DNA of 41,165 nucleotides, taken from NCBI GenBank assembly GCA_937883785.1, contig CALGDE010000149.1, positions 1 through 41,165 on the forward strand, written 5' to 3'. Source of the DNA: an uncultured cyanobacterium (lineage in GTDB: Bacteria; Cyanobacteriota; Cyanobacteriia; CACIAM-69d). The notes beneath the pieces were generated by a model that worked only from the letters and a program-made list of their open reading frames with translations, was not told the origin of the DNA and made no database searches. The position numbers and the translations under genes are program-made. Shown here piece after piece: positions 1,419 to 41,165 of this stretch. The stretch's first letter is position 1, and the number at the start of each line of letters is the position of its first letter.

Positions 1419-4136
1419 ATGACTGGACCGGGTGATCGCAACATTCCCAATCGCAACTGCTTTGAGGTGGTGTTTGATGATTTGACGCCCATGATGCAGG
1501 AATATGTGCGCACAAAAGGCGACCACGTGCAGGCGCTGCTGCTGTACCGGGTGGGAGATTTTTACGAAACGTTTTTTCAGGATGCTTGCACGGTGTCCGA
1601 AGTGTTGGAGCTGACGCTTACCAGCAAAGACGCGGGGAAAAAAATTGGACGGGTGCCCATGGCTGGCGTGCCCCACCATGCGTTAAATCGATACGCAGCT
1701 CAGCTGGTGAATCGAGGTTATGCGGTGGCGATCGCTGACCAAACGGAGGATCCCGCCCAAGCCCAGGGACTGGTGCGGCGGGAAGTGACCCGGGTCTTGA
1801 CGCCAGGGACAGTGATTGAAACGGGGATGTTGGCTGCCCGGCGGAATAATTTTTTGGCGGCGGCGGTGGTGGCGGGCAATACCTGGGGGCTGGCCCACGG
1901 GGATGTGTCCACGGGGGAGTTTTGGACCACCCAGGGGGAAGGACTGGATCCGTTAACCCAGGAGCTATTGCGGCTGCAGCCGTCGGAGGTTCTGACGCCG
2001 GTGGATGCGCCGGATCTGGTGGGATTACTGCGCCCTGGGGAAAGTCGCGATTCTTTGGAAAATCGCGGCGGCAAAATTTCCGATGCCCTACCCCAGGAAT
2101 TTTGCTACGCTCTCCGTCCGGCGTCGGCTTTTGGGCTCGATGAAGCGCGGCAACGGTTAATGCAGCGGTTTCGGGTGCGATCGCTGGAGGGATTAGGGTG
2201 CGATCGCCTGCCCCTAGCCATTCGGGCCGCCGGGGGACTGCTGGAATACATCCAGGACACCTTTAAGGGGGGCAGCGACGGCAACGCTGTGGAGGGGGAT
2301 CAGGTGCCGTTGCAAACCTTGAAAACCTATACCATTACTGACTATTTAATCCTGGATCACCAAACTCGCCGCAACTTAGAAATTGTACAAACAGTGCGGG
2401 ATGGGTTATTACACGGGTCTTTGTTATGGGCGTTGGACCAAACGGTGACCAGTATGGGCAGCCGGGCATTGCGACGATGGTTGCTGCAGCCGTTGTTGGA
2501 TACCAAATCTATTACTGCCCGCCATCGGACCGTGGGGGAACTGATTGGCAACACCCAACTGCGGCGGGATCTGCAGGCAAATTTGCGACAAATTTACGAT
2601 CTGGAGCGACTGGCAGGGCGATCGGGGGCCGGCACTGCTAATGCCCGAGAACTTATGGCTTTAGCCGACTCTCTGCAAAAGCTACCGGATTTAGCGCAGT
2701 TAGTGGCGACCTGTCAGTCTCCTTACCTCAAAGCCGTGAACCAGGTACCGGAGCCGCTGGAAAAGCTAGCGTTGCGCCTAAAAAGTTTTTTGCGGGCGGA
2801 TTTGCCCATTTCCATTACTGAAGGGGGTCTGATTCGCGATGGGGTTAGCGGGGAGTTAGATGAGCTGCGATCGCGGGCAGTGGATGATCGAACCTGGCTG
2901 GCGGCGTTGGAACAGCGGGAACGGGAACGGCTGGGGCTGTCGACCCTAAAAGTTCGCTTCAACAAAACCTTTGGCTATTACATTGGCATTCCCCGCGCCA
3001 AAGCGGACCTGGCGCCAGACGACTACATTCGCAAGCAAACTCTGACTAACGAAGAGCGCTACATTACCCCAGAACTGAAGGAGCGAGAGGCGCGGATTTT
3101 ATCCTCTCAGGACGAAACCAATCTGCTGGAATACGAAATCTTTTGTCAGTTGCGCAACGGGGCCGGGGAGCTTGCGGATCCCATTCGCTCCGTGGCTCGG
3201 GGCGTCGCTGCTGTGGATGTGCTCACCTGTTTCGCCGAAGTTGCGGTTCTGCGAGGATATTGTTGCCCAACCATGACCCGCGATCGCGCCCTGAAAATCA
3301 CCCAGGGTCGTCACCCGGTGGTGGAATATTCCCTGCCCGACGGATTTTTTGTGCCCAACTCCACCGCCCTAGGCAGCTCTGATAAAAACACTGCCAGGTC
3401 CCATCCTCCCGATTTGGTAATTCTTACTGGTCCCAATGCCAGCGGTAAAAGCTGCTATTTGCGCCAGGTGGGGCTGATTCAGTTGATGGCCCAGGTGGGC
3501 AGCTACGTTCCGGCTCAAGGGGCGACATTGGGCATTAGCGATCGCATTTTCACCCGGGTGGGAGCTGTGGACGACCTAGCCACCGGGCAGTCCACTTTTA
3601 TGGTGGAAATGAATGAAACGGCAAATATTCTCAACCACGCCACCGAGCGATCGCTGGTGCTGCTGGATGAGATCGGACGGGGCACCGCCACCTTTGACGG
3701 ACTTTCCATTGCCTGGGCCGTTGCTGAATATCTCGCCAATGATCTTAAAACCCGCGCCATTTTTGCCACCCACTACCACGAGCTAAATGAACTGGCGGCA
3801 TTGATTCCCACCGTGGCTAACTTTCAAGTGACGGTCCAAGAGCAGGGCGATCGCATTGTTTTCCTCCACCAGGTTCAGCCGGGTGGTGCCGATAAATCCT
3901 ATGGCATCGAGGCGGCTCGTTTAGCTGGCTTGCCCCAAAAAACTATCCACCGCGCTCGCCAAGTTATGGGGCAAATCGAGAAGCACTCCCGTATCGCCAC
4001 GGGGCTCCGTAAAACCAATGACAAAAAAATTAAAAAAACTACAAATTTAAAAAGTATCCAAGAAACAAACTCTCCCCTAAGTGCATCGTCAGAAACAGCG
4101 GTTCAAGAGCAGCTGGACATCCTCAACCTGTTTTAG
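1419..4136 (+). CDS. mutS: DNA mismatch repair protein MutS
   Basis: MutS recognises mispaired and looped bases and uses ATP to recruit MutL. The 905-residue product has all the parts: the mismatch-reading motif Phe48-Tyr-Glu50 near the N-terminus (GDFYETFF), connector, lever and clamp regions, and an ABC-type ATPase with Walker A GPNASGKS at 671-678, Walker B LLDEIGRG with Asp750-Glu751, and the ATHYHEL motif after it. The C-terminus adds a Lys/Ser-rich linker and ends in EQLDILNLF, which resembles a sliding-clamp binding peptide (inference). Length is normal to slightly long for cyanobacteria. The ATG at 1419 was chosen because the family N-terminus begins right after it. The gene stands alone on its strand, with 144 bases before it. 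Confidence 0.97.
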
Positions 4137-4467
4137 GTCTGCGGTTTGTTAACTCTGAATTTGTAGAATGACCATGGCGCTGTCACTAGTGACTGCAATG
4201 GCACAGCTTGAAAATTAAGGGGTTAAGGCTACGGCCTTTGGGGTTCCTCATTGGAGAGCGTGTATTCTCCTTTGCGTAAAACTTGTGTGATCTGGGGCGC
4301 GCGCTCGTTAAGAGTTAACGTCTGGTGTAGTGCCGTCATCAATGCTTTTTGCGAAAAAATTGGGGCTGAAACCCTTGCTGCTGGGCATCGAGGATTAACT
4401 GAGCGTTGCCTTGGTGACAATCTGCTCTACCAATTGTGTCTCCATCAATCTGTACTCTAGTTCTTCT
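4137..4467. other. Intergenic region with a palindrome and a dispersed repeat copy
   Basis: No convincing gene lies between mutS and the phosphoribosyltransferase. The region contains a perfect 12-bp palindrome, GTCACTAGTGAC, at 4182-4193. At 4350-4376 it holds a copy of a short element (GCGAAAAAA followed by GGGGCTGAAACCCT) that recurs at 33756-33781. Two open frames of 60-70 codons, one on each strand, have no recognisable family. Confidence 0.5.
4350..4376 (+). repeat. Short dispersed repeat, copy 1
   Basis: TGCGAAAAAA, then two variable bases, then GGGGCTGAAACCCT. The same arrangement is present once more, in the same orientation, at 33756-33781. Looser similarity continues for about 20 bases downstream. 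The core can fold as GGG-CTGAAA-CCC. Confidence 0.5.
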
Positions 4468-5034
4468 ATGACTTGGGATTCTGCGTCGCGACCTCCAATG
4501 TCCTCACCGCCGGACGACACCTTGCCTGGGAGCTCTTCTTCCGATGATTTACACGTTTCCTGGGATGACTATCATCAAAAAATCGAGCAGCTTGCCTTAA
4601 ATATTCACCATTCCCAGTGGACCTTTGATGCAATCGTTTGCATTGCTCGCGGCGGCTTAAGGGTTGGGGATATTCTGTCCAGAATCCACGATAAACCCCT
4701 TGCTATTCTCTCAGTGCGCTCCTACGGCGGAGAGGTGGGGCGCGATCGCCTAGGGGTGACCCTCTCTCAAACCCTGTCCACCACGGTGCCTCGTCTGGGT
4801 CCCAACGTGCTTCTAGTGGATGATTTGGCAGATTCTGGAAGTACCCTTCAGCGATCGCTACAGTGGCTACACCAACACCATGGGCAAGACGTGGAAATAA
4901 TTAAAACGGCCACCCTATGGTGTAAATCCACTTCAGCGGTGACCCCCGACTACTACATTGACCAGGTGGACGGCGATCGCTGGATTTGCCAACCCTTTGA
5001 GCAATATGAACGCTACCGATTACCCTCTCAATAG
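4468..5034 (+). CDS. Phosphoribosyltransferase, purine (Gpt/Hpt-like) type
   Basis: A type I phosphoribosyltransferase of 188 residues, likely transferring the phosphoribosyl group of PRPP to a purine base for salvage. The PRPP-binding loop is VLLVDDLADSGST (114-126) with the paired Asp118-Asp119, and an upstream VCIARGGLRVGD block is the family's flexible-loop start. The C-terminal WICQPFEQYER segment resembles short Gpt/xanthine-type enzymes, but the base specificity cannot be read from sequence. The frame also opens from a TTG at 4411; I prefer ATG 4468 because the extra 19 residues are low-complexity, and ATG 4498 is also possible. Neighbouring genes give no pathway clue. Confidence 0.8.
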   Translation: MTWDSASRPPMSSPPDDTLPGSSSSDDLHVSWDDYHQKIEQLALNIHHSQWTFDAIVCIARGGLRVGDILSRIHDKPLAILSVRSYGGEVGRDRLGVTLSQTLSTTVPRLGPNVLLVDDLADSGSTLQRSLQWLHQHHGQDVEIIKTATLWCKSTSAVTPDYYIDQVDGDRWICQPFEQYERYRLPSQ

Positions 5035-5504
5035 CTCTTCTTTACTTTCTTAATCTGTCCAAGAATTTTGTGGGGCATGTTAGCCTAGTAAATATACGGA
5101 AAGCACTCGAATTCTCACTCCTCTCATGGTTTGCTGTTTCAAGGTTGCAAAGCTTTGGTTAATAAGCCGGGCTTTAACGCTGCTGTCTCTTAAATTTCTG
5201 AAAGCGGCAGAGACGCCTGTGAATAGTTGATCAATGTTGCATATTTTCCTGTTTGAATGTCTGAGAGTTGAAAAGTGTTAGGCATTGTGCCAGCTTTTGC
5301 TTAAGGATAATGGTCTCCCGCCTGCCTAGGGGGAAATTCCAGCGCTGCTTATGCGCTTTCCAAGGGCAACTTTGTTGAAGGACAAAGTTCTCGAAAGCGT
5401 TTGGGTCGTTTGAGCTAATAGTTAGGTTTGCTTTCGCAAGATTTCCCTAAGCCTTCTTCCCGGGTTTTAGGCGAGCATAAAGGCTTTGTTTGTTGAGGTT
5501 TATC
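5035..5504 (+). other. Long non-coding leader region upstream of the MshEN-like gene
   Basis: 470 bases with no supported gene. The left part (5035-5340) shows only a weak stem, GTCTCT pairing with AGAGAC near 5180-5215. The right part (5341-5436) is strongly structured and is listed separately. The final bases carry GAGG at 5494-5497, the ribosome binding site of the next gene. Because everything structured lies on the sense strand just before a start codon, I read it as a 5' untranslated region, though an independent small RNA is equally possible. Confidence 0.5.
5341..5436 (+). promoter_or_regulatory. Structured leader RNA with competing stems
   Basis: Several perfect pairings overlap. 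AGCGC (5341-5345) pairs with GCGCT (5353-5357). CGCTTTC (5354-5360) pairs with GAAAGCG (5393-5399), enclosing AACTTTGT (5368-5375) paired with ACAAAGTT (5382-5389) around a six-base loop. CGAAAGC (5392-5398) can instead pair with GCTTTCG (5430-5436). The first and second stems exclude each other, as do the second and third. This is the architecture expected of a switching leader, but it matches no riboswitch class I recognise, and the c-di-GMP class I consensus is not present. Confidence 0.5.
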
Positions 5505-6104
5505 ATGACGCACACATCAGAGAGGAGTTCTAGGGCGGTTCAAGGGATGGCAACAGCCGTTGCTGACCCTATGTTTCGTCCTTTAGGAGCCTATTTCGTG
5601 GAAGCAGGATTGATTAGTCCTGCCCAGGTTCAGGTGGTGCTCAATGATCAGGAAATGACCGGACTGCGGTTCGGCGAAATTTTGGTGCAGCGTGGCTGGA
5701 TCAAAGAGAAAACCGTTGAGTATTTTGTAGACAAGTTGGTTGAGCCAGAGCGGCGATCGCTGCAAAAGTCCCTGGCTTGGCAAAAAGCTACCGTTAATCA
5801 GAAGCCTGCCCATCGTAAAGGATTTGTCACGGGGCCCCCGGCAGCACCTCCGGGTAATCGTAAGCCACGGCAGGCTGCCAGCCCATCAAATCGGACAACC
5901 ACATTGCGTCCGGCGGCAAGCCAGCATCGGAAAGGGTTTGTTGCGTCTGGACAGCGTAACGGTACGGTATCTGGTGCCGCAGCGGCCTCCACCACTGACT
6001 ATAAAAAGGCAGAGGATAGCACCAGTGAAGTGACCACCTGCTCTGGCTTGAGTCGTGACAGTGGCTATGACGAGGCTGCAGAGAGCTTAGTGTGGATCGG
6101 CTAA
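5505..6104 (+). CDS. MshEN/GspE-N-like domain protein with basic, low-complexity tail
   Basis: A 199-residue cyanobacterial protein. Residues 27-80 (LGAYFVEAGLIS, then MTGLRFGEILVQRGWI) have the repeat layout of the MshEN/GspE N-terminal domain, which in type IV pilus and type II secretion ATPases binds c-di-GMP or a partner. No ATPase follows. Instead a Pro/Ala/Arg-rich tail begins, containing the motif HRKGFV twice (103-108 and 141-146), and then an acidic C-terminus. The start is ATG 5505, set by GAGG seven bases upstream; a TTG at 5490 would add five residues. It follows a long structured leader. I infer a regulatory or adaptor role, but the exact function is unknown. Confidence 0.6.
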   Translation: MTHTSERSSRAVQGMATAVADPMFRPLGAYFVEAGLISPAQVQVVLNDQEMTGLRFGEILVQRGWIKEKTVEYFVDKLVEPERRSLQKSLAWQKATVNQKPAHRKGFVTGPPAAPPGNRKPRQAASPSNRTTTLRPAASQHRKGFVASGQRNGTVSGAAAASTTDYKKAEDSTSEVTTCSGLSRDSGYDEAAESLVWIG

Positions 6105-6121
6105 ACTTCGTGAGCGGCGGT

Positions 6122-6156
6122 TTTGGTTTGGCGATCAAAGCCGTTTGGTTTGGCGA
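6122..6156 (+). repeat. Two copies of a 13-bp direct repeat
   Basis: TTTGGTTTGGCGA occurs at 6122-6134 and again at 6144-6156, a period of 22 bases, in the spacer before the carboxypeptidase gene. Two turns of the helix apart, they could be an operator, but this is only inference. Confidence 0.4.
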
Positions 6157-6189
6157 AATATAACTTTTAAGCACTAGCTTTTACGTGCC

Positions 6190-7110
6190 ATGGATGAGTC
6201 TGCCGCATCTAAGGAATCCGAGTCGGAAACTGATGATATTGGCTTTGGGCGATCGCTTTCCCAGACAGCATCAGGGCGTCGAAGCCGTATCTCCACAGAG
6301 GTGGCTGAGGCAGTGCGTGACGGCGGCTATCCAGCGACTAAGAAACCCCGAAAGGGAGGGCTGGGTTGGCTCTTAGGGGCGCTGGCATTGGTATTTGCTG
6401 GAATTGCTGCAATGGCTCTGTGGGCGTGGAGTACAGGACAGCTAGAGGATTTGTTGGCAGGCGACTTATTTGCTCCCAAAACGCCTGACGTGGAGGAAGT
6501 GTCGGATCCCAACGCGTCGCCGACGATTAATTCCGATGACTTGTTGGGCCATTTGCCCTACGAGGAAGCGCCGGAAGACGATTTAGTGGCGATTTCCGCT
6601 GATGGGCTATTTTTGCTGCGTTCAGCGGCGGCCGAAAGTTTCCGCGAACTAGACCAAGCGGCGCGACGGGATGGTATTTCTTTGGCAATGATTTCGGCAT
6701 TTCGATCCATTGCTCAACAGCAGCAGATTTTCTTTGATATCAAGGCTAACCGTCGCCAAACTCCCGACGAGCGGGCAGAGGTAAGTGCTCCTCCCGGCTA
6801 TAGCGAACACCATACGGGCTACGCCATTGATTTGGGCGACGCGGCAGTGCCGTCGGTGAATTTGAGCGAGTCTTTTGAGGACACTCGGGCGTTTGAGTGG
6901 CTGGATCGCAACGCCGTTCAGTTTAATTTTGAGCTGTCCTTTCCTCGGGACAATGTGCAAGGTATTGCCTACGAGCCCTGGCATTGGCGCTTTGTGGGCG
7001 ATCGCCACAGCTTAGAAACGTTCTACAAGGCTCGATATCAAGTGAGACCTCGCCCAACGTCAGCGACATCGGAGGGAGACGCTGATGGGTCAGACGAGGC
7101 AGAGGACTGA
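6190..7110 (+). CDS. Membrane-anchored D-alanyl-D-alanine carboxypeptidase, VanY/M15B family
   Basis: This enzyme removes the terminal D-Ala from peptidoglycan stem peptides in the periplasm. The 306-residue protein begins with a charged cytoplasmic stretch (1-55), a single membrane helix (about 58-80) and a linker. The zinc peptidase domain (about 120-285) has the full set of signatures: SAFRS with Arg172, SEHHTGYAIDLGD with zinc ligands His207 and Asp214, and EPWHW with catalytic Glu262 and zinc ligand His265. The C-terminus is acidic and Ser/Thr-rich. A sense-strand neighbour (MshEN-like) ends 85 bases upstream, and the next gene is convergent, 28 bases away. The family call is secure; the exact substrate (tetra- or pentapeptide) is not. 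Confidence 0.9.
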   Translation: MDESAASKESESETDDIGFGRSLSQTASGRRSRISTEVAEAVRDGGYPATKKPRKGGLGWLLGALALVFAGIAAMALWAWSTGQLEDLLAGDLFAPKTPDVEEVSDPNASPTINSDDLLGHLPYEEAPEDDLVAISADGLFLLRSAAAESFRELDQAARRDGISLAMISAFRSIAQQQQIFFDIKANRRQTPDERAEVSAPPGYSEHHTGYAIDLGDAAVPSVNLSESFEDTRAFEWLDRNAVQFNFELSFPRDNVQGIAYEPWHWRFVGDRHSLETFYKARYQVRPRPTSATSEGDADGSDEAED

Positions 7111-33819: not shown

Positions 33820-35112
33820 CTAGCTAAAATCTTGATTTTTAAAGCGCTCTTGGGCTTCTTTGAAGGCTTTGGACATGGCAGTTTGGATGGTTTTTGGGTC
33901 AGGCTTCTTGCCGCCCATTAAATCGCCGAAATAGACGCAGGCTCCTTCCCCCAGCGCCCAAGTGTATGCCGCTGCCCAGGATGCTGCGATCGCCCCGCCA
34001 AATCCAGGAATAAACTTAACCAGCTCCCGCCCAATGGTTTGGGCAATAAACCCTCCGGCGATCGCCCCAGCAATGCCACCGGCCTGAGACGGCGACAGGG
34101 TTTGACCATAGAGTTTGCCTAATAACCCCACCAGCGAAACCTGCAGTGTGGTGAGCACTGGCATAGTAGCAAAGGGTAGGGGCACCGCTGCCAACGTCGC
34201 TGTCGCCATGGAAAATGCCAAAATATAGCGCCGTGCGGCCCCCCGGTACAAACCGCCAATTTGCGTTAAGGCATCGTCATCCAGCAGTCGATGAATTGCC
34301 GTGGCTTCTGCCTTGGGTAATAGGTCTGCCAGGGCATTAATTAGCGCTTCGCGTCCGTAGTTTACTGGAGTGTAGTCGTCTTCAGGCTGGGTAAAATCGA
34401 TGGGCACCACTCGGTCCGCTAGGGAATCGAAACTTTTGGAAATTGCCGCGATCGCCCGTTCCAAATCGTCAAAGTTTTCGCTTTTGTTTCCACTGTTACC
34501 CCTGTTGGTGGGTGGATAAGGGGGATGGTTGATCTCGCGATCGCCATAGGCTTCATGAAGGCAGGTAATTGCCAATAAACACGGTACATCCGACGTTCTT
34601 CGGCGCACGCGGGACACAATTTTTCGCAGGCTGTCGGTGGCGAAATCGCTCGCCTTGACCGTTACCACCACAATGCGCGATCGCTGGTTATCGCTATTGT
34701 CCTCAGTGGTAAGCCCAGTCGTTAGCTCTTCAATCAGCGCCTCATCGGGAGACCGTCCATTTTGGGGGCGATCGCCCAACCCCACCGTGTCCGTAAACAC
34801 CAGCCAAGGTAAGTCATCAGACGGATAGGCATAGCGCTGCGTATGCTGGGTATGGGGACGAAATCCCTGCCCCACAATTTCCGCCGACACCCCCGTTAGC
34901 CCACACACAATGGAGCTTTTTCCTGACTGGGGCTTGCCAAGCAACCACACCTCCGTCGTCGGCAACTGCTCCCGCACCGTTTGCAAAATTTCCGCCAGCT
35001 GCTCATCGCTGACGTTGAAATTTGCACCGAGCCACTCTCCTGCCCGATCCGCCCAATCCCGAGCGATCGCCCCCACCTGCTCCAGCGGTGAATCTTGACT
35101 ATCCTGCGCCAC
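33820..35112 (-). CDS. Membrane-associated GTPase with DUF697 domain
   Basis: The 430-residue protein has an N-terminal Ras-like GTPase domain: P-loop GKPQSGKSS (59-67), switch II DTVGLGD (108-114), and CLHEAYGD near 184-191 in place of a normal NKxD motif, so base specificity may be relaxed. The C-terminal part (about 285-400) is the DUF697 domain, with hydrophobic helical hairpins (FSMATATLAAVPLPFATMPV; GGIAGAIAGGFIAQTIG; FGGAIAASWAAAYTWALG). It probably acts at a membrane. Residues 196-205 (HPPYPPTNRG) look like an inserted low-complexity piece. It is divergent from the reductase gene. Confidence 0.85.
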   Translation of the reverse strand: MAQDSQDSPLEQVGAIARDWADRAGEWLGANFNVSDEQLAEILQTVREQLPTTEVWLLGKPQSGKSSIVCGLTGVSAEIVGQGFRPHTQHTQRYAYPSDDLPWLVFTDTVGLGDRPQNGRSPDEALIEELTTGLTTEDNSDNQRSRIVVVTVKASDFATDSLRKIVSRVRRRTSDVPCLLAITCLHEAYGDREINHPPYPPTNRGNSGNKSENFDDLERAIAAISKSFDSLADRVVPIDFTQPEDDYTPVNYGREALINALADLLPKAEATAIHRLLDDDALTQIGGLYRGAARRYILAFSMATATLAAVPLPFATMPVLTTLQVSLVGLLGKLYGQTLSPSQAGGIAGAIAGGFIAQTIGRELVKFIPGFGGAIAASWAAAYTWALGEGACVYFGDLMGGKKPDPKTIQTAMSKAFKEAQERFKNQDFS

Positions 35113-35174
35113 GCCCTTCTCCTAAAAACCGGTACCCTAAAAACCATTATCGCTGAGTGCCAATTTTCCCTGCC

Positions 35175-36188
35175 ATGTCCACCGCTTCCCCTCCCTTAAC
35201 CCTCGACATCAAACCCATTCAGCTTCCGAAAATGGGCTGTGGCACGTGGGCATGGGGCAATCGCCTGCTGTGGAATTACGACCCCACCATGGACGATGAC
35301 CTGCAACAGGTGTTTAACCTGTGCGTTAACAATGGCGTGACTCTTTTTGACACTGGCGACTCCTATGGCACCGGCAAGCTCAATGGGCGCAGCGAAAGCT
35401 TACTGGGAAAATTCGCCATCACCTACACCGGTGAAAACCACGATGCCCTGTGCCTTGCTACCAAACTTGCTCCTTATCCCTGGCGACTGACGCGCCAGTC
35501 AATCATTGACGCCGCCAACGCTTCCCGCGATCGCATGGGACGTCTGGACTTGGCCCAACTGCACTGGTCCACCGCCAACTATGCCCCCTGGCAAGAGCCG
35601 GCACTGTTAAATGGGCTCTGTGACCTGTACGAGCAGGGCATTATTCGCGGTGTGGGGCTGTCGAATTTTGGACCAAAACGGCTGCGGAAAATGTACCCGA
35701 TTTTTCGCGATCGCCAAATCCCAATTTTGACCTTACAAATTCAATACTCGTTACTGTCCACCTATCCTGTAACCGACTTGGGATTAAAGGAAACCTGTGA
35801 TGAATTGGGAATAAAAATTATCGCGTACAGCCCGCTATGTCTCGGTGTTTTGACCGGCAAGTATAGTGATGACGAGGGCACGAAACCAAGCTATCCCAAG
35901 GGACTGCGTAACCTGCTATTTCGACAGTTAATTCCTAATGCTGAACCGGTGGTCAACTGTCTGCAGGCCATTGCTAAGGAACGCGATAAAACCCCGGCTC
36001 AAATTGCCCTTAATTGGTGCATGGTTAAAGGTACAATTCCGATTCCCGGCGCGAAAAATCTCAAGCAAGCTCAGGATAATCTGGGTGCCACAGGTTGGCT
36101 GTTGGATAACGGCGAAGTGGATGCTCTCGATAAAGCCGCTGCCAGCGTGAGTAAACCTATGGTGCAAAATGTATTTCAGAGCCGCTAA
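35175..36188 (+). CDS. Aldo/keto reductase
   Basis: NADPH-dependent reductase of small carbonyl compounds with a TIM-barrel fold. The 337-residue product (from ATG 35175; GTG 35157 would add six residues) has the active-site tetrad in LFDTGDSYGTG (Asp and Tyr), LATKLAPYPW (Lys) and LAQLHWST (His). GVGLSNFGPKRL and the cofactor-binding end IPIPGAKNLKQAQDNLGA are typical. The specific substrate is unknown. It is divergent from the GTPase gene by about 60 bases and convergent with the next gene. Confidence 0.93.
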   Translation: MSTASPPLTLDIKPIQLPKMGCGTWAWGNRLLWNYDPTMDDDLQQVFNLCVNNGVTLFDTGDSYGTGKLNGRSESLLGKFAITYTGENHDALCLATKLAPYPWRLTRQSIIDAANASRDRMGRLDLAQLHWSTANYAPWQEPALLNGLCDLYEQGIIRGVGLSNFGPKRLRKMYPIFRDRQIPILTLQIQYSLLSTYPVTDLGLKETCDELGIKIIAYSPLCLGVLTGKYSDDEGTKPSYPKGLRNLLFRQLIPNAEPVVNCLQAIAKERDKTPAQIALNWCMVKGTIPIPGAKNLKQAQDNLGATGWLLDNGEVDALDKAAASVSKPMVQNVFQSR

Positions 36189-36307: not shown

Positions 36308-39181
36308 TTAATTGGGTAGGGCAATAACTGGCTCCATCAATGTTTCTAAATCTTGGGGATAGGCGATCGCAAATCCCTGAGCATAGTCAATCCCGATAGT
36401 GCGCAAACGCTCAACTACCCGTTCACTTTCCGCGTACTCTGCAATGGTTTCAATGCCCAAAGAATGGGCAATACGATGGCAGCTTTCCACCATTGTTCTA
36501 TCTACTTTATTGGTGGTTATTTCACGCACAAACATGCCGTCAATCTTTAAATAATCCACGGGAAGGGTACGTAAATAAGCCAACGAACTCATGCCACTGC
36601 CAAAGTCATCAAGGGCAAATAAACATCCCAGCGATTTAATTTCCTCAATAAACTTTGTGGCTCGTTGGAGATTGGCGATCGCCATGGTCTCCGTCACTTC
36701 AAAGCAAATCTTACTCGCTGGACTCCCTGGATAACTCAAACACTCTTTTAAAAAGCTGAAAAAGCTCTCACTGCTAAGACTCTCTCCCGACAAATTAATT
36801 GTATAAATGCAATTGTCAGAATGCTTTTCTAACATTGACCAGTAGCGTTTTAGAAAGTTTTTCACTACCCACCGATCAAGATCGGGCATCAGGTTATATC
36901 GCTCGGCGACCGGTAAAAACTGACCTGGGTTAATCAGCTCTCCATCTTCACTAACCATTCGAATTAGCACCTCATAAATGGTTGGATGATCGGCGTGATG
37001 GAGAGGAATAATCTTTTGAGCAAATAAACAAAATCGCTCTTCCACTAATGCTTGGTTGATTTTTACTAGCCAGGATTGCTTACCGTACTGAGTGGCAATA
37101 TCTTCTTGTCTTAAAGTATAAATTTCTAGCTGATTTTTTCCCCCACGCTTGGAGTTGTGGCAAACGGTAGCTCCCACATTTAGAATATTGCCGACGGCTT
37201 TATTGGCTTCGTTCCACTGCACTAAACCAATGTTTGCACTCAAGGTGAAAGCTTGATCTTGCCATACAAATTTATCGCTCTTAATACCGCTGCGAAATTC
37301 ATCAATCATTTCCGTGGCGCGATTTAGGGAACAGAAAGGCAATAAAACGCCAAACTCATCTCCTCCTAGTCGAGCAATGATTTCCGCAGATCGAAAATAA
37401 TGTTTTAAAACTTGACCTGCATAGGATAGAAGCTGATCCCCAGCAACGTAACCAAAAATGCTATTAACTAGGTCTAATTGATCTAAATCCACATAGCAAA
37501 AAATATGATTGTAGGGCGTATCAATATCCTGATTAACTAACTCTTGAAGCTTAATATCTAGTGCTCGATGGTTATACAGTCCTGTGAGTCCGTCATGGGT
37601 GGCCTGCCAAGACAATTCCTGTTCCAGATAATAAGACTGGGTCATATCTCGAAAGGCTAGAACGACGCCCACCGCATTTTGATGGCGATCGCAAATAACA
37701 TTGGCAGAACCATTAACCACCGACTGCTGTCCCGTTTTTGAAACCAGCAAGTGACGCCCTCGCCAACTTTTTAGCCTTGCTTCATTAACTTCTCCCGCAA
37801 TGAGGCAAGGTCGTCGCTCTTCCGTTGTGATGCTGTATAAATTCACCACCTCATTAAGGGGCTGGTGCCATGACTCTTCCTGAGACCACCCTGTGAGCTT
37901 CTCTGCTACTGGATTCAGCGTTTCAATCTTCCCGGTTAGGTCAATGGTGATCACTGCATCACCAATAGAACGTAGGGTGACCTGTGCAAACTCCCGCTCT
38001 TGCGCCAGTGCATTTTCAACGCGGTGTCGGTACGTTAAATCCTGCCCAAGCAAAATCGTACTTTGGTTATCCAGTTGAGAATTAAGCCAAGCTAAATCCA
38101 AAGATTTTCCTGATTCAGTCTTGACTTCAATTTCTCGCCATGTACCTTCTTCATGATGCAATATCTTGGAAAGTTGTTGTTTATTATGGGTCGAATTAGA
38201 GAGGGACTGAAGTTGTATTTCTGTATTGTCTTGCTTAGATGCTTCATCGCCAAATGTATCTTTAAAAAGTTTATTGGCTAAGCTGATTTTTCCATCTTGT
38301 TCATAGACTGCCAACAGCAACGGGACATTATCAAAAATGTTGCGAATAATCTTTTCCCGATACTCCAACTTCTTCTTACTTATGCGCAAAGCAGAAATAT
38401 TAGAAGACGAACCGATCATGATTAGTGGTTCGCCGTTGGTATCTCTTAAAGCAAGACCTCGCCCTGCAAACCAGCCGTAGCTTCCATTAGCTAGTCGGCT
38501 GCGATATTCAATGGAGAAAAAGGATTGCTCACCACTGAGATGTTTATTCAGCGCCTTTAATACGGAGGGGTGATCGCTTGGATAAATACAATTTAGCCAC
38601 GCATCGTAGCTGTCTTCAATTTCATGGGAGTCGTACCCATGTAACTCGCGCCAACGCTGGGACAGCTTGAACGTATTGTCACTTAGATCCCACTCCCACA
38701 GTCCATCGTTGCTACCTTTCAACGCCAAGTCCCAAAAGCGACTTTGGGCTTCAGCCTGAGCTTGCATAACTGTTTTCTGTACAGCGCTCTTGGCTAAGAA
38801 TGCACTTTTAAGGATGCTGCGGCTGCCAACGCCAATTAACCCACTAAAAACCCGTCCAAAGCGCACGAAAATCAGTGAACGATAGGCGGGTAAGCCGATG
38901 ACAATCAGCAAGGTGACAATATCAAGAATGTTCCATGGATTTCTCAAAAATTGCCATGGCTTCTTCCTGTGATTGATGATTTTTAACGCCAAGTCAATAA
39001 CAATTAGGACCACTGTTAAAGCAAAAATCGAGTTGAGCGCTACTCCCCAGGGCAAAATCTTTGGCGCCAGAGATTGCAGTAGTAACAACAATCCATCAAT
39101 AACTAAAAGTATCGTGATCCAGTTCCTCAGTTTTCTTTTGCTGATGAGGTTCTTGATGGACGTTTTGGGTCTTTGTTTCAT
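36308..39181 (-). CDS. Voltage-sensor-like / PAS / GGDEF / EAL signalling protein
   Basis: A 957-residue membrane protein that probably controls cyclic di-GMP. Residues 21-118 form four membrane segments in the order of an ion-channel voltage sensor: S2 VVLIVIDLALKII with an acidic residue, S3 NPWNILDIVTLL with the WN..D signature, and S4-like LIFVRFGRVFSGL with spaced Arg. No pore follows. Three PAS-type regions come next (about 150-260, 280-390, 400-525), then a GGDEF domain with intact RLGGDEF (about residue 606), and an EAL domain whose motif reads EVLIR (about 737), with INLSGE, FEVTET, LDDFGSG, LKIDG, IAEYAE and YAQGF. Both catalytic sites look plausible. hflX lies upstream on the same strand. 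Confidence 0.88.
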   Translation of the reverse strand: MKQRPKTSIKNLISKRKLRNWITILLVIDGLLLLLQSLAPKILPWGVALNSIFALTVVLIVIDLALKIINHRKKPWQFLRNPWNILDIVTLLIVIGLPAYRSLIFVRFGRVFSGLIGVGSRSILKSAFLAKSAVQKTVMQAQAEAQSRFWDLALKGSNDGLWEWDLSDNTFKLSQRWRELHGYDSHEIEDSYDAWLNCIYPSDHPSVLKALNKHLSGEQSFFSIEYRSRLANGSYGWFAGRGLALRDTNGEPLIMIGSSSNISALRISKKKLEYREKIIRNIFDNVPLLLAVYEQDGKISLANKLFKDTFGDEASKQDNTEIQLQSLSNSTHNKQQLSKILHHEEGTWREIEVKTESGKSLDLAWLNSQLDNQSTILLGQDLTYRHRVENALAQEREFAQVTLRSIGDAVITIDLTGKIETLNPVAEKLTGWSQEESWHQPLNEVVNLYSITTEERRPCLIAGEVNEARLKSWRGRHLLVSKTGQQSVVNGSANVICDRHQNAVGVVLAFRDMTQSYYLEQELSWQATHDGLTGLYNHRALDIKLQELVNQDIDTPYNHIFCYVDLDQLDLVNSIFGYVAGDQLLSYAGQVLKHYFRSAEIIARLGGDEFGVLLPFCSLNRATEMIDEFRSGIKSDKFVWQDQAFTLSANIGLVQWNEANKAVGNILNVGATVCHNSKRGGKNQLEIYTLRQEDIATQYGKQSWLVKINQALVEERFCLFAQKIIPLHHADHPTIYEVLIRMVSEDGELINPGQFLPVAERYNLMPDLDRWVVKNFLKRYWSMLEKHSDNCIYTINLSGESLSSESFFSFLKECLSYPGSPASKICFEVTETMAIANLQRATKFIEEIKSLGCLFALDDFGSGMSSLAYLRTLPVDYLKIDGMFVREITTNKVDRTMVESCHRIAHSLGIETIAEYAESERVVERLRTIGIDYAQGFAIAYPQDLETLMEPVIALPN

Positions 39182-39646: not shown

Positions 39647-41165
39647 CTAGTTTTGTTGGGTGAAGTTTAATAGGCGTTGACGGAGCGTTTTCAGACCCAG
39701 GCGATCGCGAGCGGCAATAAACGCAGCTTCGGGGTAGTCTATCTTCGCCTGGTCAAGGGCGTCACTAGACACGGCGTCAATTTTATTAAAGGTCAGCAAA
39801 CTGGGACCTGGAACCACGTCCATGGTCTCTAAAATTGCGTTTACCGCATCAATTTGATGCACCCAAGCGGGATGGGATAAGTCCACCACATGCAGCAGCG
39901 CGTCTGCATCGGTGACTTCCTCTAAGGTGGCGCGAAAGGCATCGACCAAGGGCGGTGGTAGGTTCTGGATAAACCCTACCGTGTCCACCAGTATAATTTG
40001 CAACGGTTTGTGGGTAACGGGGTCGATGTCCGTTAGGCGTCGCGTGGTGGGGTCCAAAGTGGCGAAGAGCTGGTCCGCTGCGTAAGCTTCAGCATTGGTA
40101 AGGGCGTTAATTAAGGTGGACTTGCCCGCGTTGGTGTAGCCAATAATGGCTACCACCGGCAAATCTTGTTTTTGACGACGTTCCCGTAGTCGGCTCCGGT
40201 GGGCTTGGAGCTGATTAACGTCGCGCTGTAGCTTGGCGATACGTCGCTGAATGGCTCGCCGTTCCGTTTCCAGTTTTGTTTCTCCTGGTCCACGGGTGCC
40301 GATGCCGCCCCCTAGGCGGGACATGGCTTGCCCTCGACCCACCAGGCGTGGCAGTTGATATTCAAGTTGGGCCAACTCCACCTGAAGTTTGCCTTCGCCG
40401 GAGCGGGCTCGCTGGGCAAAAATGTCGAGAATGACTTCGGTGCGATCAACGGCGCGGACCCCCGTGGCGGTTTCCACGTTGCGCGCCTGCACGGGAGATA
40501 GGTCCCGATCAAAAACAATTAGGTTGGCTCCCAGCCGCTGAGCTGCTAGGGCTAAATCTTGCACTTTGCCGCTGCCGATTACCGTTTGGGGATGGGCTCG
40601 CGATCGCCGTTGCAATATCGTTTCAATCACATCGCCGCCCGCTGTATCCACCAAGCGCCCCAGCTCTTCCATGCGCTCGCTAAATTCCAGGTTGGACACC
40701 TCGTCCGTTTGGATCCCCACCAGCAATACCTGCTCCCGGTTCCCTTCCACCTGGCGAGCCACAAACTCCCGGCGGAATTCTTCCTCCAACCCCCCTACAA
40801 AATCCACAAAGTCCCAGGTGTCTAGCTCATCCAGGCTCAAGGACGACAAAATTGTGGTGCCTGTCACGGGACTGTTAGCTTCTTCAACTGCTGTCTCCGC
40901 CGGTTGTTGTGACGAAGCGGCGGACCTATTGCTAAGGGGAGTGTCGTCGATCGTATCAACACGGTCGGAAATTAAGTGGGCGACGTGGGCTGCGGAAACA
41001 TAGCCCGTTGCGCCGCCCCCTCGCCGCTCAAAGCCGCGATCGCTGACGCTGAGGAGCACTAGGGCATCGAGGCGCTGCATCACCAGGGCCGTTAACGTGG
41101 CGGTGTTGGGGGGGCGATCGCCATGTTTAAGCTGGGTGGCCACACAGCGAATGCCCGACAAGCGC
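39647..41165 (-). CDS. hflX: Ribosome-associated GTPase HflX (5' end outside window)
   Basis: HflX rescues and splits stalled or heat-damaged ribosomes. The 505 codons visible run off the right edge: the frame continues upstream of SGIRCVA with Leu and Arg codons, so the first TTG seen is internal and roughly 80-100 N-terminal residues are missing. Present are the N-terminal nucleotide-binding domain (TVIGSGKVQDLALAA, LIVFDRDLSPVQARN, VDRTEVILDIFAQRA), the Gly-rich linker SRLGGGIGTRGPGETKLE, and the G domain with GYTNAGKST, VDTVGFIQNLP and FNKIDA. The long Ser/Thr-rich insert near residues 75-105 is typical of cyanobacterial HflX. Confidence 0.94.
   Translation of the reverse strand, partial: RLSGIRCVATQLKHGDRPPNTATLTALVMQRLDALVLLSVSDRGFERRGGGATGYVSAAHVAHLISDRVDTIDDTPLSNRSAASSQQPAETAVEEANSPVTGTTILSSLSLDELDTWDFVDFVGGLEEEFRREFVARQVEGNREQVLLVGIQTDEVSNLEFSERMEELGRLVDTAGGDVIETILQRRSRAHPQTVIGSGKVQDLALAAQRLGANLIVFDRDLSPVQARNVETATGVRAVDRTEVILDIFAQRARSGEGKLQVELAQLEYQLPRLVGRGQAMSRLGGGIGTRGPGETKLETERRAIQRRIAKLQRDVNQLQAHRSRLRERRQKQDLPVVAIIGYTNAGKSTLINALTNAEAYAADQLFATLDPTTRRLTDIDPVTHKPLQIILVDTVGFIQNLPPPLVDAFRATLEEVTDADALLHVVDLSHPAWVHQIDAVNAILETMDVVPGPSLLTFNKIDAVSSDALDQAKIDYPEAAFIAARDRLGLKTLRQRLLNFTQQN

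Follow-up and report, generated by a model that had tools for sequence, protein, structure and literature searches.

Gene and domain organisation

The window analysed here (the whole of a 41,165-nucleotide stretch of DNA from an uncultured cyanobacterium) contains a complete gene for a protein of 957 residues. The preliminary description of this gene gave no strand; it lies on the minus strand. The protein begins with a four-helix S1-S4 unit, a voltage-sensor domain (VSD), which is followed by three PAS domains, a GGDEF domain and an EAL domain (Table 1). Orthologs with the same domain order are found in a species of the same genus (G004, locus L012) and in one of the same family (G005, locus L013).

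Table 1. Coordinates of the VSD-PAS-GGDEF-EAL gene and its parts within the window.
Feature	Residues	Window position	Strand	Basis and remarks
Complete ORF, VSD-PAS-PAS-PAS-GGDEF-EAL	957 aa	36308..39181	-	Orthologs 84% (G004) and 41% (G005) identical, full length
Voltage-sensor domain S1-S4	22-126	38804..39118	-	Pfam Ion_trans, S1-S4 only; PDB profile matches; Nav VSD fold match
S1 helix	21-38	39068..39121	-	Invariant D29, aligned with the Ci-VSP S1 Asp
S2 helix	45-70	38972..39049	-	Invariant F53 and D63 (charge-transfer acidic position)
S3 helix	82-96	38894..38938	-	NPWNILD at 81-87; invariant W83, N84 and D87
S4 helix	98-115	38837..38890	-	Invariant R101, R107 and R110; 113 is Ser here, Arg in G005
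Basic helix from S4 to first PAS	121-156	38714..38821	-	AlphaFold model
PAS domain 1 (PAS_3)	173-257	38411..38665	-	Pfam
PAS domain 2 (PAS_8)	279-317 (matched)	38231..38347	-	Pfam
PAS domain 3 (PAS)	401-513	37643..37981	-	Pfam
GGDEF domain	527-684	37130..37603	-	Pfam, E 4e-26
EAL phosphodiesterase domain	708-942	36356..37060	-	Pfam, E 8e-60; catalytic residues invariant in the three orthologs

The convergent neighbour, at 35157-36188 (plus strand), is an aldo-keto reductase. It has a weak match to the NCBIfam Kv_beta family TIGR01293 (48 bits, far under the cut-off of 365), and is probably an ordinary aldo-keto reductase. Beyond it, at 33820-35112 (minus strand), is a protein resembling GTPases, which has what looks like a P-loop motif and hydrophobic C-terminal segments but no NCBIfam match, and which also lies beside the fusion gene in G004. 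The window and G004 thus have the GGDEF-EAL gene, the aldo-keto reductase and the GTPase in the same order. Upstream, at 39647-41161 and on the same strand as the VSD gene, is the GTPase HflX (TIGR03156, above cut-off).

The N-terminal domain is a voltage-sensor domain

It had been proposed from the sequence that the first 120 or so residues resemble the S1-S4 unit of ion channels, the residues cited being an acidic residue before LALKII, the NPWNILD motif and arginines in S4. All of these are present, the acidic residue being D63 and the arginines R101, R107 and R110, and the profile search and structure prediction suggested at the time both lead to voltage sensors. Pfam Ion_trans matches residues 22-126 of the window protein over positions 8-120 of its 241, which is S1-S4 only. 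At 19.5 bits (E 6e-4) this match is under the 25-bit Pfam cut-off, so that independent support is needed. Both orthologs have the same S1-S4-only match over the same profile range (E 7e-5 and 5e-5), and the isolated G005 domain, at 27.2 bits (E 2.7e-6), is above the cut-off. When a profile made from the three N-termini was compared with all PDB chains, it matched NavPaS (E 1.8e-5), NavMs (0.003) and Ci-VSP (0.0056). When the domain is aligned with Ci-VSP, D29 lies opposite the Asp of S1 and D63 opposite the FMLD Asp of S2, and the NPWNILD motif pairs with NPWEVAD. A further match, to the Hv1 chimera 3wkv, was discounted because its matching S2-S3 stretch is letter for letter that of the Ci-VSP chain.

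Three cyanobacterial channels, one of them from the genome of the window, were compared with the domain profile to profile (P 2.5e-10), and R107 and R110 align with the first two S4 arginines of these channels. The window's genome also encodes a channel protein of the canonical voltage-gated type (G000:C39:73146-73835, L001), with six helices and four arginines in S4. The sequences were also scored with a three-sequence profile of bacterial-channel VSDs against 1,500 local shuffles of each real sequence. All three orthologs score above every one of their own shuffles; for the window sequence the score is 29.3 bits against 27.2 for the best shuffle, which came from 5-residue shuffling, a procedure that preserves much of the motif. 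The acidic counter-charges D29 (S1), D63 (S2) and D87 (S3) are invariant and align with the channel and VSP positions.

Structure prediction agrees with this. An AlphaFold model of residues 1-270, built from the three orthologs only and with neither channel sequence nor template, has helices at 15-38, 45-70, 75-80, 82-96 and 98-115, followed by 121-156 running into PAS1. The top VIA-align match is NavCt (Z 10.5, rmsd 2.3 A over 97 residues, model residues 17-115), where it should be kept in mind that arrangement alone can give helical bundles Z values up to about 13. Nearly all of the best 50 VIA-align rows are Nav or Cav sensors; Ci-VSP and Hv1 chains are absent among these 50, which is no evidence against either. 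Confidence in the model is lowest in S4 (pLDDT 44-59). Foldseek on the same model gave only PAS/LOV chains as top matches, because PAS1 dominates it, and a full-length AlphaFold model from the three sequences (pLDDT 46) was used for secondary structure only.

The window protein's own Pfam score, under cut-off, and the middling Z values that helical bundles can give are what might be said for an unrelated four-helix membrane domain that merely resembles a VSD. Against this, profile, motif register and fold comparison are concordant and the isolated G005 domain is above cut-off, which makes an unrelated domain hardly credible. A pure chance resemblance and an unrelated bundle were therefore both rejected on the fold, profile-profile and shuffle results. 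Since sequence and fold agree, we take membership as settled: the N-terminal domain of the window protein belongs to the VSD superfamily. Neither of the outcomes named beforehand as refuting this, an unrelated topology in the predicted structure or a lack of matches to voltage-sensor families, was obtained.

The earlier suggestion that no pore follows is borne out: there is no S5-S6 after S4, from which a helix runs directly into PAS1. The absence of S5-S6, with the Ion_trans match ending at 120 of 241, rules out a voltage-gated ion channel.

Conservation of S4 and possible competence as a sensor

The S4 sequence of the window protein is YRSLIFVRFGRVFSGLIG. R101, R107 and R110 are invariant across the three orthologs, 113 is Ser in the genus and Arg in G005, and 116 is never Arg. 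The spacing 101/107/110(/113) is that of Ci-VSP 217/223/226(/229) (numbering from PMC13095418). The preliminary remark that S4 has fewer regularly spaced arginines than true sensors therefore holds for the window species, which has Ser113 and Ile116 at gating positions R3 and R4, but not for G005, with Arg at 101, 107, 110 and 113. Two in-register gating charges would lead one to expect a shallow voltage response.

Between the window and G004, S4 is identical at 19/21 positions and S1-S3 at 51/77 (Fisher p 0.03). S4 has a dN/dS of about 0.03; at the high dS between the congeners, all changes in the codons of R101, R107, R110 and R121 are silent. Compared with G005 the excess conservation of S4 is not significant (p 0.19), although residues 100-111 are identical at 9/12 positions when the whole VSD is only 32% identical. 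The basic helix that follows is also well conserved, with 30/32 of residues 119-150 identical in G004.

These results bear on the worry, raised with the first description, that the domain is a scaffold only: a decayed sensor, retained as a VSD-derived anchor or dimerisation scaffold that is blind to voltage, with sensing left to PAS and GTP. Two of the four gating positions have been lost in the genus, there is an Ile (Ile60) at the S2 aromatic position of the charge-transfer centre, and the VSD is evolving faster than the enzyme (71% identity between congeners, vs 90% for EAL). Within the VSD, however, the drift is in S1, S2 and the loops, while the S4 arginines are under purifying selection; D29, D63 and D87 are invariant despite 32% VSD identity; and a plain anchor has no need of arginines in the membrane. 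The worry is thereby weakened, and we consider a decayed sensor unlikely, though Ser and Ile at R3/R4 and Ile60 remain. The conservation of S4 speaks against a bare anchor, without amounting to proof of voltage sensing.

A second alternative is that the domain responds to something other than voltage, such as a lipid, pH, tension in the membrane or a ligand bound within its cavity, in the manner of the S1-S4 units of TRP- or CNG-type channels. In TRP-type channels, S1-S4 domains with reduced S4 charge serve in ligand or lipid binding. CNG channels, too, contain VSDs yet are thought to be voltage independent (PMC4256070). We regard this alternative as distinctly improbable, given that the conserved acids of S1, S2 and S3 together with S4 arginines at 3-residue spacing make up a voltage-sensing set, and that conservation across the three sequences indicates no ligand site.

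Voltage sensing by the window VSD is plausible, falling a little short of an even chance. Against it stand Ser113, Ile116 and Ile60, and Asn84 in the place of E183, the S3 partner in Ci-VSP. The ortholog of G005 (L013:4475-7450, minus strand) has the fuller S4 and a degenerate GGDEF (YTDEF), and is the one best suited to experiments on voltage sensing.

The probable enzymatic output

Both signature motifs of the output module had been described as essentially intact. This is true of EAL, whose signature reads E-V-L in the window protein but whose catalytic residues are all present: Q722, E737, N796, E828, D858, D859, K879, E915, E918 and Q935 are invariant in the three orthologs and align with RbdA. 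It is true also of the GGDEF motif, which is literal in the window protein (606-610) and in G004, although the domain around it has DLDQLDLVNSIFGYVAGD off consensus, keeping the first Asp, the Asn and GD but with the FK, ND and GH positions altered. In G005 the domain is degenerate (YTDEF), having lost metal and guanine residues, among them the Asp and GD. Identity to G005 is 145/258 (56%) for EAL and 57/169 (34%) for GGDEF.

The strongest NCBIfam match is NF007298 (PRK09776), which we take to be the DgcE/YegE-type family; it covers residues 369-950 (PAS3-GGDEF-EAL) at 506 bits, the cut-off being 1135. The closest solved relative over GGDEF-EAL is RbdA/PA0861 (E 2e-106). RbdA has been reported as a phosphodiesterase stimulated by GTP bound at GGDEF, although reports differ (PMC10294637, PMC7825114). 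Since the EAL residues are invariant and GGDEF is degenerate in G005, the output that all three proteins share is likely to be breakdown of c-di-GMP by EAL. The original assignment of a c-di-GMP turnover module can accordingly be narrowed to the EAL phosphodiesterase as its conserved catalytic part.

Distribution and the place of the VSD

A survey of this fusion in other cyanobacteria, as had been suggested, gave two relatives, those of G004 and G005, so that the fusion was found in three related species only. A scan of about 85,000 species, with patterns that reach only close relatives, returned only these two. Elsewhere in 386 genomes of the phylum, a VSD-specific profile matched nothing beyond short frames with weak scores, of which those that were intact were of channel size. 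Among the Ion_trans (PF00520) matches listed for 90 genomes, which extend to E about 8e-5 and could miss weaker VSDs, there was no other long frame with an S1-S4-only match. No relative of the fusion was found in viral contigs or plasmids.

When 389 genomes of the class were searched with a profile of the first 270 residues, the matches in G004 and G005 alone began at residue 1; the other matches listed start at residue 103 or beyond, near the helix that precedes PAS1, and this helix-PAS1 unit is found in many other cyanobacterial proteins. From where these matches start, it would appear that a VSD of the channel type was fused ahead of a widespread cyanobacterial PAS coupling module. It follows that conservation of the helix after S4, being part of that module, is not specific to voltage coupling.

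In the nearest PAS-GGDEF-EAL relatives from the same genomes, the VSD is replaced by CBS repeats (G004:C226) or a receiver domain (G000:C146, G004:C262), as judged by eye from the translations without a profile. The G004:C226 paralog (3806-6211, L029/L032) has N-terminal CBS-like repeats followed by PAS repeats and GGDEF-EAL. The presence of CBS or receiver domains at the place of the VSD supports its role as an input domain.

Possible function

Our best explanation, which we put at close to an even chance, is that the protein is a membrane-bound c-di-GMP phosphodiesterase with the pore-less VSD as its sensory input. The more specific and more tentative form of this is that the VSD puts c-di-GMP hydrolysis under the direct control of membrane potential, the protein being a possible prokaryotic counterpart of the VSPs, made by an independent fusion of a VSD to PAS-GGDEF-EAL. 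A change in membrane potential or in the local field would move S4, with R101, R107 and R110, past D63 in S2 and D87 in S3; the helix from S4 to PAS would relay this shift through the chain of PAS domains to a GGDEF-EAL dimer, and the relayed shift would alter the hydrolysis of c-di-GMP by EAL. In this genus, binding of GTP to GGDEF may be a second input. The protein would then work much as an animal VSP does, except that an enzyme for a bacterial second messenger would stand where the VSP has its phosphoinositide phosphatase.

According to a 2023 review, prokaryotic VSDs, as known so far, are always accompanied by a pore (PMC10377628). The window protein and its orthologs are an exception. 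The VSD-controlled enzymes named in reviews are animal VSPs (PMC13095418, PMC3440755), and we found no report in the open-access PMC literature of a VSD joined to GGDEF or EAL. The protein is thus a new combination of two known kinds of part, a VSD and a c-di-GMP enzyme module. If it responds to voltage, it would connect membrane potential to c-di-GMP directly, through one molecule, and this link could be tested with a single heterologously expressed protein. Genetically encoded tools that place second messengers under voltage control might also be developed from it.

Comparison with known systems

The window VSD shares its S1-S4 fold and the register of S2, S3 and S4 with NavAb, NavMs, NavCt and the channel G000:C39. 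Bacterial Nav and Ion_trans channels differ in having an S5-S6 pore and four regular S4 arginines, whereas the window protein is poreless and has two in register plus R101.

Hv1 is, like the domain described here, a stand-alone VSD with an S1 Asp, and D29 is at what we take to be the position of the Hv1 selectivity-filter Asp. The role of that Asp (PMC10377628), together with the lack of a pore, might suggest a proton-permeable, Hv1-like domain that informs the enzyme of pH or of a proton current. This is very improbable: S4 has no RxWRxxR (PMC10377628), reading R-F-G-R-V-F-S in the window and R-F-G-R-V-L-R in G005, with no Trp, and Ci-VSP shares the S1 Asp but conducts no protons (PMC13095418). 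The missing S4 motif rules out the Hv1 family, from which the window protein also differs by its large attached enzyme, and no prokaryotic Hv1 is known (PMC10377628).

The enzymatic half resembles RbdA/PA0861 of Pseudomonas aeruginosa in its PAS-GGDEF-EAL order and EAL catalytic set. RbdA differs in having a putative periplasmic sensor (PMC10294637) rather than a VSD, and the GGDEF nucleotide motifs of the window protein are further off consensus. E. coli DgcE/YegE is similar over PAS3-GGDEF-EAL, the match lying well under the family cut-off. Its N-terminal membrane domain, by contrast, is MASE1 (PMC6510439).

In Ci-VSP of Ciona, a pore-less VSD is likewise followed by a cytosolic signalling enzyme. 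Both proteins have the S1 Asp, the S2 Asp and the NPW..D motif of S3, and in both the S4 arginines are spaced by six and then three residues (R217/R223/R226, PMC13095418, and R101/R107/R110). The differences are that R229 and R232 are Ser and Ile in the window protein (113 being Arg in G005), that Phe161 of S2 is Ile and Glu183 of S3 is Asn, and that the window protein is bacterial. Its PAS-GGDEF-EAL output, in place of a PTEN-like phosphatase, rules out membership of the VSP family. Ci-VSP is the closest working analogue.
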